From NCBI GenBank assembly GCA_903821875.1, contig CAIJMU010000144.1, forward strand, positions 1-43,664: a stretch of 43,664 bases of DNA, written 5' to 3'. The notes under the pieces are model-generated. The model had not been told where the DNA came from. It worked only from the letters and a program-made list of their open reading frames with translations, and made no database searches. Origin of the DNA: an uncultured Spirochaetota bacterium. Its GTDB lineage: Bacteria; Spirochaetota; Spirochaetia; Treponematales; Rectinemataceae. Shown piece by piece: positions 23,826 to 28,425 of the stretch (positions are counted from its first letter, which is position 1; the number at the start of each line of letters is the position of its first letter). The position numbers and the translations under genes were made by a program.

Positions 23826-24076
23826 GGTGGATGCTCGGTATTCCTCTTCAAGGGTCCACAGACAGACCACTCCAGGCCGCGCCTATTCACGTGCTAAAAC
23901 CTCCCCTACAATGATGGCACATAATGTGTCCTTTTCAGGTCTGGAGCCGCAAAATGCGGACCTCGCCAGGAAAGGAGATGGATGGTGAAGGGCGACCGGA
24001 GTCGGCATGCCTGCTTGATCGCTGCACATGCAGGGCAGATGCTCCGTCCTGTCGGAGCCGAGGAACGAGGCGGGAA

Positions 24077-24895
24077 ATGAAGGAACTGTTTGAGCATCTC
24101 AAGGAGGGTCAGTCGGACGGCCTCGTGCCCTGGCAGGTTGAACTACAGGTGGCAGAGGCCACCGGGGCGGGATTCCGCGAGATCGAAGGCGCTGCACTGC
24201 GGGGCGGACTCCGCCTCGAGCGTTATGCGCGCAATTTCAGGACTATCGACATCGAGGGGCAGCTCCGGCTCCACGAGGGCAGTGTCGCAGTCATCGGGTG
24301 CGGCGGCCTCGGGGGCTACCTCATCGAGGAACTCGCGCGGCTCGGCATCGGCACCCTGATCGCCGTCGACCCCGACAGCTTCGAGGCAAGCAACCTCAAC
24401 CGGCAGATCCTCGCCACAGTCGCTGATCTCGGCAGGCCCAAGGTACAGGTCGCCGCAGAGCGGGTCCGGTCCATCAACCCGGCTACCGCTGTCATTCAGC
24501 GGCAGATCCGCTTTGACACAGGAAGCGCAGACCTCATCCTGGCCGGGGTCGATGTCGTCGCCGACGCCCTCGATTCCATACCCTCGCGGCTCGAGCTCGC
24601 CGCCGCCGCCGCCCGCCTGGGACTTCCCCTCGTGCACGGTGCGATCGCGGGCTGGTACATCCAGGCGACCACCGCCCTCCCCGGATCCGCTGCCATCGAG
24701 ACGCTCTTCGGCAGCGCAACGACGAGCCGTGGCATAGAGACCGAGACCGGAAACCCGGCCTTCGCCCCAGCGGTCGCCGCTTCGATCCAGGCGGCGGAGA
24801 TCACGAAGCTCCTCCTCGGCAGGCCGGCAGCCCTCGCAGGAAGGCTCCTCCACCTCGACCTCGAGCGCATGACGGCCATCACGCTGCCGCTCTAG
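24077..24895 (+). CDS. ThiF/MoeB/HesA-family adenylyltransferase
   Basis: A 272-residue E1-like enzyme. The Rossmann nucleotide-binding motif is GCGGLGG (residues 74-80), followed by the conserved DPDSFEASNLNRQ segment and by the RY-type entry RYARNF before it. ThiF/MoeB proteins adenylate the C-terminal Gly-Gly of a ubiquitin-like sulfur carrier. The CxxC zinc pairs of MoeB are absent, as in some HesA-like forms. No ThiS/MoaD-like carrier is encoded in the window. It is a single gene, divergent from the lipoprotein operon and convergent with hydA. The ATG at 24077 matches the family start. The 150 bp before it contain several short hairpins (one 6-bp perfect stem near 24041-24058), but no known riboswitch was recognised. 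Confidence 0.8.
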   Translation: MKELFEHLKEGQSDGLVPWQVELQVAEATGAGFREIEGAALRGGLRLERYARNFRTIDIEGQLRLHEGSVAVIGCGGLGGYLIEELARLGIGTLIAVDPDSFEASNLNRQILATVADLGRPKVQVAAERVRSINPATAVIQRQIRFDTGSADLILAGVDVVADALDSIPSRLELAAAAARLGLPLVHGAIAGWYIQATTALPGSAAIETLFGSATTSRGIETETGNPAFAPAVAASIQAAEITKLLLGRPAALAGRLLHLDLERMTAITLPL

Positions 24896-24975: not shown

Positions 24976-26751
24976 TCAATACCTCCCGCGCGGGGTGTAC
25001 TTTGTATGCAAGAGCTCGTGGGCCTTGTGGGAGTTCGGGGCGCCGAGGAAGTCCGCGTAGAGTTTCATGACAGCCGCGTTCTCGTGGGACTTCCGGATCT
25101 TGAAGCCCGAGTCCTCGGCGTAGATAGCCCTGGCGCGGGCCTCGCGTTTTTCAGGGGTGATCGGGAGGGGTTGGCCTCCCCCGCCGAGGCAGCCGCCCGG
25201 ACAGGTCATTATCTCGATGAAGTGCGGGGCGAGGGTGCCTGCCTTGACGGCCTCCATGACCGTCTTGGCATTGGCGGTGCCGTGCGCTATGAGGACCTTG
25301 AGCGTGACACCCTCGAGCCAGGAAAATTCCGGCTTGACGCCCGTGATGGTGAGGGCAGCCTCACGCACGCCCTCGAAGCCGCGCAATGGCGTGATGTCGA
25401 GGTGCTCGAAGGGGACTTCGCGGCCAGTGATGATTTCCCAGGCGCTGCGCAGGGCCGCCTCCATCACACCTCCGGTCGCAGCAAAGATCGTGGCGGCCCC
25501 CGTCGATTCGCCCAAGGGGCTGTCGAATTCGGAATCGGGAAGGGACTTGAGGTCGATGCCGGCCTGCTTGATCATCGCGGCGAGCTCGCGGGTGGTGAGG
25601 GCGAAGTCGACATCCTGGATGCCGTCGCGCCCCATCTCCGGCCGGCCGGCCTCGAATTTCTTCGCCGTGCAGGGCATCACCGAGGCGCAGTAGATATCCT
25701 GGGCCTTCAGCTTCATCCTGTCCGCCCAGTAGGTCTTCAGTAGTGCACCGAACATCTGCTGCGGTGACTTGCAGGTGGAAACATTGGGAAGGAGTTCGGG
25801 GAAAAAATGCTCCTGGAACTTGATCCAGCCCGGGGAGCAGGAGGTCGTCATCGGAAGGTTGGTACTCTTGCCTTCGACGAGGGCTCCCTTGAGGCGGGCG
25901 AGGAGCTCGTGGGCCTCCTCGAGGATCGTGAGGTCGGCGGTGAACTGCGTGTCGAAAACATAGTCAAAGCCCATCATCCGGAGGGCTGTCACCATCTTGC
26001 CGGTGACTCGTGTGCCGGGAGGATAGCCGAATTCCTCGCCGAGGGCGGCGCGGATGGCGGGCGCAGTCTGGATTGCGACGACCTTTCCGGGCTCGTCGAT
26101 GGCCTTCCAGACCTCCTCGACGGAGTACCTTTCATGGAGGGCTCCCGTGGGACAATGGGCGACGCATTGGCCACAATTGATACAGACGATTTCCGAGATC
26201 GGCTTGTTGAAGGCCGAACCGATGATCGTGCGGTCGCCCTTCCAGAGGTTCGCGAGGGCGCCGACACCCTGGAGGTCCTGGCAGGCCCGTATGCAGCGCT
26301 GGCAGAGGATGCACTTGTTGTTGTCGCGGACGAAGACCGGCGAGGACAGGTCGCGCGGGATGATCCTCTCGCGTCGCTCCTTCCAGCGCAGTTCCGTCAG
26401 TCCGTACTCGTTGGCGAGGCTCTGGAGCTCGCAGGAGAGGTTCTTCGGGCAGACCGTACAGTCGGTGTAATGGTTGGCCAGGAGGAGCTCGACGACGGTC
26501 TTCCTGGTGCGCCTCACCTTGTCGCCGGTCGTCATGACCTCCATCCCCTCCACCAGGGGCGTCGAGCAGGAGGCCTGGAGGGTCTTCGATCCCTTTACCT
26601 CGACGACGCAGATGCGACAGATTCCCTTGGTCCTGAGGTCGGGGTGGTCGCAGAGGGTCGGGACGTGGATGCCTTCGCGGCGGCAGAGCTCGAGGATGGT
26701 CATGCCCTCGGGGGCCTCGTGGTCGATCCCGTTTATCGTGACGTGGAGCAT
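24976..26751 (-). CDS. hydA: [FeFe]-hydrogenase catalytic subunit HydA
   Basis: The catalytic subunit of an NADH-linked [FeFe]-hydrogenase, 591 residues, cytoplasmic. Domains in order: N-terminal 2Fe-2S ferredoxin (C34, C45, C48, C62), His/Cys 4Fe-4S site (H94, C98, C101, C107), two 4Fe-4S sites (C147-C157 and C190-C200), H-cluster domain and C-terminal small-subunit domain. H-cluster motifs are TSCSPGW (303-309), MPCTAKK (359-365) and TCPGGCLGGGGQP (516-528). The first motif has Ser in place of one of the two adjacent cysteines of TSCCP; as far as I recall this variant is common in multi-subunit NAD(P)-linked enzymes. GGGGAGG precedes the start. It is the last gene of hydC-hydB-hydA; the HydEFG maturases are not in the window. 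Confidence 0.95.
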   Translation of the reverse strand: MLHVTINGIDHEAPEGMTILELCRREGIHVPTLCDHPDLRTKGICRICVVEVKGSKTLQASCSTPLVEGMEVMTTGDKVRRTRKTVVELLLANHYTDCTVCPKNLSCELQSLANEYGLTELRWKERRERIIPRDLSSPVFVRDNNKCILCQRCIRACQDLQGVGALANLWKGDRTIIGSAFNKPISEIVCINCGQCVAHCPTGALHERYSVEEVWKAIDEPGKVVAIQTAPAIRAALGEEFGYPPGTRVTGKMVTALRMMGFDYVFDTQFTADLTILEEAHELLARLKGALVEGKSTNLPMTTSCSPGWIKFQEHFFPELLPNVSTCKSPQQMFGALLKTYWADRMKLKAQDIYCASVMPCTAKKFEAGRPEMGRDGIQDVDFALTTRELAAMIKQAGIDLKSLPDSEFDSPLGESTGAATIFAATGGVMEAALRSAWEIITGREVPFEHLDITPLRGFEGVREAALTITGVKPEFSWLEGVTLKVLIAHGTANAKTVMEAVKAGTLAPHFIEIMTCPGGCLGGGGQPLPITPEKREARARAIYAEDSGFKIRKSHENAAVMKLYADFLGAPNSHKAHELLHTKYTPRGRY

Positions 26752-26764
26752 GTTTTCGCCTCCC

Positions 26765-27949
26765 CTATGCCGAAAGGATCTCGTCCCGGAACTTCGAGAC
26801 GATCGTGCGGAAGGAGTTGGGAACCGACTGGCCGAAGCCGCATTTCGAGGCGAGGCTCATCGTGTCCGCGAGCTCGAGGAGATCCGTGATGGTCCTGGAG
26901 TTGCCGTTGCCGGCCTCGAATTTCAGTATTCCCTCGGGCATGCGCGAGCAGCCCGCCCTGCAGGGCGTGCACTGCCCGCAGGACTCCTCCTGGAAGAACA
27001 TGACGAAGTTCTTGAGCATCTTGAACATCGAGCGGGACTTGTTAAGTATGATGATCGATCCCCCGGTCGGGATGCCTTCGAAGGCAAGGTGCTTGTCGAA
27101 ATCGTCAGCGCTCGCGCAGAAGCCCGAGGCTCCACCGATCTGCACTGCCTTGGTGTCGCCGTCGGCCTCCACCTCACGGAGGAGCTGCCTGATGGTGACG
27201 CCGTATTCGAACTCGTAGATGCCCGGCTTGGCACAGTCTCCGGACACAGAGAAGAGCTTTGAACCGGTTGAAACCGCGGTCCCGATCTGCCTGAACCAGT
27301 CCGAACCGTTGAGGATGATATGGGGTATGAAGGCCAGGGTCTCGACGTTGTTGACGACGGTGGGCATGCCGAGAAAGCCGTGCTCCACGGGGAAGGGCGG
27401 CTTGTTGCGCGGCTCGCCACGCCGTCCTTCGAGGGACTCCATGAGGGCCGTCTCCTCGCCGCAGACATAGGCGCCTGAGCCGAGGCGGAGCTCGAAGTCG
27501 AAGCAGAAGCCCTTGGAGTCGCAGATATTGTCGCCAAGGAGGCCGAGATTCCGCAGCTCCTCGATCTTCTGTGTTATGAGGGGTCTCATGTAGTCATACT
27601 CGCCGCGGAGATAGAGGAATCCCCGCGTTGCCCCTACGGCGCGGGCACCGATCACCATGCCCTCGACAACCTTGGCCGTGCGCTGCTCGAGGATCTTCTT
27701 GTCCTTGAAGGTACCCGGCTCGCCTTCGTCGGCGTTGCAGATGAAGCAGGCATCGTTCCCGGGCCGTGCGAGCATGTTCGCACGGGCGAATTTCCACTTG
27801 AGCCCCGTCGGGAAACCGGCCCCTCCCCTCCCCCGGAGGTTGGAGTCGGTCACGATCTTGATGATCTCGTCCTGACCCATCCCGAGGGCCTTCCGCAGGG
27901 CCAGCCCGGGTTCCAGCTCCGAGAACACGACGTCTATCTTTCGTGCCAT
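26765..27949 (-). CDS. hydB: Hydrogenase NADH-binding subunit HydB (NuoF-like)
   Basis: The FMN and NAD(H)-binding subunit, 394 residues, homologous to NuoF of complex I. It has the glycine-rich NADH loop GRGGAGFPTGLKW, the FMN-binding segment NADEGEPGTFKD, GAYVCGEETALMESLEG, and the 4Fe-4S cluster motif ESCGQCTPC with a further Cys in SKCGFG. The HydB of known electron-bifurcating hydrogenases has an extra N-terminal thioredoxin-like 2Fe-2S domain and a C-terminal two-cluster ferredoxin domain; both are missing here. This argues for an enzyme using NADH alone or with a simpler mechanism. The start at 27949 follows GAGGAAGGA, 11 bp after hydC. Confidence 0.93.
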   Translation of the reverse strand: MARKIDVVFSELEPGLALRKALGMGQDEIIKIVTDSNLRGRGGAGFPTGLKWKFARANMLARPGNDACFICNADEGEPGTFKDKKILEQRTAKVVEGMVIGARAVGATRGFLYLRGEYDYMRPLITQKIEELRNLGLLGDNICDSKGFCFDFELRLGSGAYVCGEETALMESLEGRRGEPRNKPPFPVEHGFLGMPTVVNNVETLAFIPHIILNGSDWFRQIGTAVSTGSKLFSVSGDCAKPGIYEFEYGVTIRQLLREVEADGDTKAVQIGGASGFCASADDFDKHLAFEGIPTGGSIIILNKSRSMFKMLKNFVMFFQEESCGQCTPCRAGCSRMPEGILKFEAGNGNSRTITDLLELADTMSLASKCGFGQSVPNSFRTIVSKFRDEILSA

Positions 27950-27960
27950 GGTCCTTCCTC

Positions 27961-28425
27961 CTACCTGTAGCCGCGGACGATGTCGACCGCCTTCGAGGGG
28001 GTGAGCCCGGCGTAGAGGTCTTCGTTCACCATCATCGAGGGCCCCTGGTCGCACATACCCATGCAATTGGCATAATCGAGGCTGTATCTGCCATCGGAGG
28101 TTGTTTCCCCGAGCTTGATGCCGAGCTCCGCCTCGAGGGCACGCTGCACCTTGTCCTTGTCCTTGAGGTCACAGGAGATCGTCCGGCAGATCCTGATGAC
28201 GAAACGCCCCCGCTTCTGGAGGTTGAGGAAGTGGTAGAAGGAAGCAACGGAAAATACCTCGGTCTGCGAAAGGCTGAATTTTCGGGCGACCTCGTTCACG
28301 ACCTCCTCGCCGATGAAGCCATATTCACGCTGGAGGCCCTGAAGGACGGGGAGCAGGGCCTCGCGGCCGTCCCCATGCTTGCGTTCGAGCTCCTCGATCT
28401 TCATGAGGAGCGACTCTCTCAACAT
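27961..28425 (-). CDS. hydC: Hydrogenase 2Fe-2S subunit HydC (NuoE-like)
   Basis: A 154-residue thioredoxin-like 2Fe-2S subunit homologous to NuoE. Four ligands are visible as CRTISC (about residues 79-84) and CMGMC (about 120-124). It passes electrons between the FMN subunit and HydA. The N-terminal helical domain (EALLPVLQGLQREYGFI) is complete. A strong AAGGAGGAAG site precedes the ATG. It is the first gene of the operon, 104 nt after the predicted transcription start. Confidence 0.93.
   Translation of the reverse strand: MLRESLLMKIEELERKHGDGREALLPVLQGLQREYGFIGEEVVNEVARKFSLSQTEVFSVASFYHFLNLQKRGRFVIRICRTISCDLKDKDKVQRALEAELGIKLGETTSDGRYSLDYANCMGMCDQGPSMMVNEDLYAGLTPSKAVDIVRGYR

Follow-up and report, generated by a model that had tools for sequence, protein, structure and literature searches.

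A putative non-bifurcating, NADH-dependent [FeFe]-hydrogenase operon in an uncultured spirochaete

The closest described system is Hyd1ABC of Syntrophomonas wolfei, whose HydB1 subunit has 407 residues and lacks both the N-terminal [2Fe-2S] and the C-terminal [4Fe-4S] cluster. After purification, this enzyme passed electrons between NADH and H2 in the absence of ferredoxin, and it did not reduce ferredoxin (Losey et al. 2017, PMC5626996). HydAB of Syntrophus aciditrophicus also produces H2 from NADH without ferredoxin (PMC7311640). An earlier note on the DNA studied here predicted such chemistry “as proposed for some syntrophs”; in both organisms it is more than a proposal, having been measured with purified enzymes. 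Three later papers describe the additional clusters of bifurcating HydBs as essential, conserved or apparently necessary for bifurcation (PMC9499530, PMC9304861, PMC11406978), and structural and family papers report that they are absent from non-bifurcating enzymes (PMC9499530, PMC9304861). A counter-example to the N-terminal part of this argument is the enzyme of D. fructosovorans, which has a HydB homologue without the N-terminal [2Fe-2S] cluster (PMC5626996) and is called bifurcating in a later abstract.

Losey et al. 2020 (PMC7311640) set out how bifurcating beta subunits can be told from non-bifurcating ones, cautioning that the count of Fe-S domains alone is insufficient and that three residue regions are more diagnostic. 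Near the NADH site, bifurcating subunits have A or E together with M, whereas non-bifurcating subunits have T or S together with K, S or A; near FMN, F contrasts with Y; and in the third region, bifurcating subunits have GGPSG where non-bifurcating subunits have other sequence. The same paper lists Spirochaeta among the genera with predicted non-bifurcating enzymes, notes that some genomes hold both types, and suggests that these are used according to H2 level. An uncultured Spirochaetota class expresses butyrate and isobutyrate degradation, and an uncultured Treponematales family is predicted to degrade amino acids with release of formate (PMC7382037); the parts of that paper on spirochaete syntrophy hold no description of the operon presented here. 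A limited search for spirochaete non-bifurcating HydB hydrogenases, by title and the start of the abstract, found no publication on it. The architecture and function of such HydABC enzymes are already published for S. wolfei Hyd1ABC; the present locus is a further member of the non-bifurcating class, clear and conserved, from uncultured spirochaetes.

We describe here the gene order, domains, residues and tree position of this operon, which lies in a 43.7 kb stretch of DNA from an uncultured member of the Rectinemataceae (“the window”, the whole stretch analysed). Its genes are as follows.

27961..28425, minus strand: hydC, 154-residue NuoE-like [2Fe-2S] subunit with a thioredoxin fold (PF01257, 149 bits; also position and spacing)
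26765..27949, minus strand: hydB, 394-residue bare NuoF with an FMN/NADH domain and one [4Fe-4S] region (PF01512 and PF10589 only)
24976..26751, minus strand: hydA, 591-residue [FeFe]-hydrogenase catalytic subunit (PF02906, 312 bits; PF02256, PF13510, PF10588 and Fer4 families)

The order hydC-hydB-hydA, with gaps of 11 bp (hydC/hydB) and 13 bp (hydB/hydA), is that of a tight operon. AGGAGG-like sequences lie upstream of hydC and of hydB, and hydB starts with ATG. A longer HydB of 433 residues, from a TTG at 28066, gains no domain and would run 106 bp into hydC; we rejected it. HydA carries Fer2, a NuoG-type [4Fe-4S] domain, two further [4Fe-4S] clusters and the H-cluster domain by Pfam, with the H-cluster motifs TSCSPGW, MPCTAKKFE and CPGGCLGGGG. 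Convergent with hydA is a ThiF-family (E1-like) gene on the plus strand (23924-24895) with no evident link to a hydrogenase.

How does this HydB compare with that of bifurcating enzymes? Its Pfam matches are Complex1_51K (residues 33-209) and NADH_4Fe-4S (residues 311-392), and nothing else. Aligned with the 626-residue HydB of T. maritima, it spans only T. maritima residues 175-553; hence, both ends are missing. A full-length HydB on contig C54 of the same genome served as a control, and in that protein C-terminal Fer4 domains were detected by Pfam at 549-598 and an N-terminal 2Fe-2S ferredoxin domain by NCBIfam at 15-92. Neither of these matches was found in the HydB of the window. The earlier note had called the subunit a bare NuoF of 394 residues lacking both terminal domains, and both points are borne out. 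The one remaining cluster region is complete.

26840..26980, minus strand: HydB cysteines C324-x2-C327-x2-C330 ... C370, all present (within PF10589)

We take these four cysteines to be the [4Fe-4S] ligands, as in NuoF. The earlier note had also reported that no ferredoxin gene is adjacent. No [4Fe-4S] ferredoxin gene emerged from a six-frame motif scan of the window, a search that is blind to [2Fe-2S] ferredoxins and variant motifs; of its four matches, two lie in HydA, HydB accounts for one, and the last is in a spurious-looking 92-residue frame on the plus strand. Among the ten flanking ORFs searched with Pfam, seven matched families unrelated to electron transfer, none of them a ferredoxin, and three had no match, in agreement with that report.

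The residues of the subunit core point in the same direction as its domains. By the criteria of Losey et al. 2020, HydB is non-bifurcating at all three regions and has none of the three bifurcating signatures.

27701..27730, minus strand: HydB NADH-site segment DEGEPGTFKD (T80 and K82, non-bifurcating)
27455..27475, minus strand: HydB FMN-site segment GAYVCGE (Y161, non-bifurcating)
27122..27136, minus strand: HydB SLBB segment GGASG (GGPSG in bifurcating subunits)

In the HydB tree described below, all 25 genome rows that belong to the bifurcating clade have A with M, F and GGPSG; in the group of the window, T or S with K, and Y, occur in all ten rows and GGPSG in none. GGPSG is not specific to bifurcation, because beta subunits of the HoxF group have it too: it accompanies the T/K pattern in 15 of 17 such subunits from the class (rows within L061-L083). 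We therefore rejected GGPSG as a stand-alone criterion.

The HydB tree comprises 66 rows, 60 from loci and six references, and was built without S. wolfei and S. aciditrophicus, whose non-bifurcating [FeFe]-enzymes have been assayed, and without T. maritima. Rows were gathered with the HydB of the window as query, the root is for drawing only, and several long branches were flagged. The input held 64 locus rows, from which L069, L070 and L077 (motif not found) and L072 (frame cut by a stop) were dropped; L017 was excluded as an apparent duplicate of L005, both contigs being 12,243 long. The HydB of the window falls in a group of ten rows (support 96/86) that adjoins the HoxF group, and a branch with 100/99 support separates this pair of groups from the side that holds NuoF and the bifurcating HydBs. 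All nine other HydBs of its group have an [FeFe] HydA alongside. The bifurcating clade has 28 rows (100/99) and includes the references from A. woodii, T. kivui and A. mobile together with the paralogues on contigs C44 and C54. Placement inside such a clade is what the earlier note had named as evidence against its reading; we looked for it in the 66-row tree and did not find it, the HydB of the window lying outside that clade. Exclusion from the bifurcating clade is as far as the tree goes.

The operon is conserved among its nearest relatives. The HydBs of L005-L008 are 71-76% identical to that of the window (L006-L008 are titled Spirochaetes and L005 “bacterium”), the next-nearest, from a Gastranaerophilales genome (L009), is 51% identical, and the order hydC-hydB-hydA is common to all five loci. 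These nearest HydBs point to a spirochaete as the host. In the family sample (30 genomes searched at E <= 1e-80, 30 loci read), a short HydB lies beside an [FeFe] HydA in six of the 30 genomes: G000, G001, G005, G013, G023 and G027. Since the short HydBs of G005, G013, G023 and G027 group on the NuoF side of the tree, apart from the group of the window, short HydBs belong to more than one lineage. Three of these, L019, L020 and L030 (from G005, G023 and G027), form a separate short-HydB lineage beside [FeFe] HydA, in which GGGSYVVGDETAL replaces the usual GAYVCGEETAL at the FMN site. The locus from G013 (L085) holds, in one stretch, a hydC-like gene, a HydB fused to a GltD-like module, a second hydC-like frame, a shorter HydB and hydA; the fused HydB has bifurcating residues and the shorter one has T/K/Y residues. 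In the class sample (297 genomes, E <= 1e-105), 26 genomes have a HydB match, and an [FeFe] HydA lies beside it in five of the 26 (G000, G073, G123, G141 and G246). Among the remaining 21, 17 belong to the HoxF group and four were not placed.

The earlier note had proposed phylogenies of both HydB and HydA as a check. HydA does not discriminate. In the HydA tree, from which three of 16 loci (L090, L091 and L093) were lost to the motif filter, the HydA of the window groups with those of L005-L008 (99/99) and more weakly with L009 and L092 (91/91), and the next neighbour of this group is HydA1 of the bifurcating enzyme of A. woodii (89/86). The family model NF040763 (“NADH-dependent group A6”) scores above its cut-off in six of six HydAs scanned, including two beside bifurcating-type HydBs. 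We rejected HydA as a discriminator, since NF040763 matches both types. For annotation, the caution is that neither a HydA-based family name nor GGPSG alone separates bifurcating from non-bifurcating enzymes.

Together, these observations make it very probable that the product of hydC, hydB and hydA is a heterotrimer, namely a non-bifurcating, NADH-dependent [FeFe]-hydrogenase like Hyd1ABC of S. wolfei. The sequence tests (domains, residue criteria and HydB phylogeny) support the predicted NADH-dependent H2 chemistry; the cofactor content, electron path and ferredoxin independence of HydABC are inferred from the enzyme families named above. NADH would donate a hydride to FMN in HydB, and electrons would leave FMN singly, passing through the [4Fe-4S] cluster of HydB and the cluster chain of HydA to the H-cluster, where H2 would be made in a reversible reaction. 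Ferredoxin would be neither needed nor reduced, because this HydB lacks the additional clusters of its bifurcating counterparts; a point against this reading is that ferredoxin could dock directly on HydA. H2 would equilibrate with the NADH/NAD+ pool, and would therefore be released only at low H2 pressure and taken up at higher pressure.

The likeness to S. wolfei Hyd1ABC lies in the three subunits, a HydB of about 400 residues, the same two missing cluster regions and a single flavin site, and is one of description rather than of direct sequence comparison. S. wolfei differs in belonging to another phylum and in using fatty acids exclusively, and the present genome also has bifurcating-type HydABC and Rnf genes. 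With HydAB of S. aciditrophicus the operon shares the non-bifurcating residue pattern, but there a single chain combines HydC with HydB, and here they are separate; another genome of the class has a fused HydC-HydB frame (L062/L093) adjoining HydA. Bifurcating HydABC enzymes (T. maritima, A. woodii, T. kivui; BfuABC) share the architecture of HydA and HydC and the NuoF core of HydB, but the HydB of the window lacks their N- and C-terminal Fe-S domains and all three residue signatures. HoxF of NAD-reducing [NiFe]-hydrogenases has the same T/K/Y residue pattern and forms the neighbouring group in the HydB tree. It differs in that, at the one locus checked (L102), it has a NuoE-like fusion and [NiFe]-hydrogenase genes, and is not paired with an [FeFe] HydA.

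The genome (4.68 Mb, 193 contigs) contains four matches to the [FeFe] catalytic domain and four to the [4Fe-4S] region of NuoF. On contig C54 are a hydC-like gene, a small gene judged by eye to encode a [2Fe-2S] protein, the full-length HydB and HydA; the match of this HydB to that of A. woodii extends from end to end (814 bits). On contig C44 (L054:8691-11948), HydA adjoins a HydB of 1085 residues that includes a fused GltD/NfnB-like module. Both HydBs have every bifurcating residue. Complex I genes including NuoF are on contig C5, and the gene order on contig C10 reads as rnfCDGEAB (RnfC by Pfam, the other names by eye). HydF, for H-cluster assembly, is present, scoring above the cut-off once its two pieces are joined. 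POR_N has seven matches, and the [NiFe]-hydrogenase family has one, at 40 bits. The acyl-CoA dehydrogenase family has three, and one family is too little to judge fatty-acid oxidation. Since bifurcating-type enzymes coexist in the cell, HydABC is probably an H2-pressure-dependent alternative and not the only hydrogenase. The earlier note's expectation that H2 is released only at low H2 pressure may hold for the enzyme, but it does not transfer to the organism, in which bifurcating-type HydABC sets and Rnf genes are present as well.

A variant of the non-bifurcating reading, which we regard as possible though distinctly the less likely form of it, is that HydABC works mainly as an H2-uptake NAD+ reductase whose NADH would feed complex I or biosynthesis. 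The S. wolfei enzyme is faster in this direction (94.5 U/mg for H2 to NAD+ vs 6.6 U/mg for NADH to H2; PMC5626996), complex I genes, NuoF included, are present in the genome, and the HoxF group, with a [NiFe]-hydrogenase gene confirmed at one locus, is the neighbour in the HydB tree. However, direction depends on H2 pressure and the NADH/NAD+ ratio and is not readable from sequence. It is very unlikely that the enzyme is a bifurcating one in disguise, with a subunit encoded elsewhere supplying the missing clusters and ferredoxin still the partner. Bifurcating-type HydB genes are indeed present elsewhere in the genome, domain number alone is not diagnostic (PMC7311640), and the D. fructosovorans enzyme, whose HydB homologue has no N-terminal [2Fe-2S] cluster, is described as bifurcating; but the core residues of the HydB of the window are also of the non-bifurcating type, its tree position is outside the bifurcating clade, and no ferredoxin-like gene was recognized in the window. 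Least probable of these readings is that the enzyme belongs to a larger assembly, for instance one in which a formate dehydrogenase connects formate with NADH and H2. S. wolfei Hyd1ABC co-purified with a formate dehydrogenase (PMC5626996), but no such gene is among the ten flanking ORFs scanned.

What might a non-bifurcating HydABC contribute to a cell that also has bifurcating-type enzymes? One speculative proposal, to which we give little weight, is that H2 serves as a redox currency inside the cell, shared among the non-bifurcating, canonical-type and GltD/NfnB-fused HydABC enzymes, Rnf and complex I. If so, bifurcating enzymes would make H2 from ferredoxin and NADH, and the non-bifurcating HydABC would return H2 to NADH. 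This would amount to a soluble ferredoxin-to-NAD route with its direction set by ambient H2, and the cell would not be committed to syntrophy. Because bifurcating-type HydBs are in the same genome as the non-bifurcating one, the two offer a natural pair to test which parts of HydB create ferredoxin coupling.

The fused HydB on contig C44 combines bifurcating residues with a lack of the usual C-terminal ferredoxin motifs, and may link NADP(H) to H2. Long frames like it, recognized only from their length, motif and place in the tree, are found at L024-L026, L028, L034, L038, L041, L044 and L045. A fourth, more distant protein with an [FeFe]-hydrogenase domain (93.5 bits, in a 696-residue frame) is encoded on contig C155 (L004/L057).
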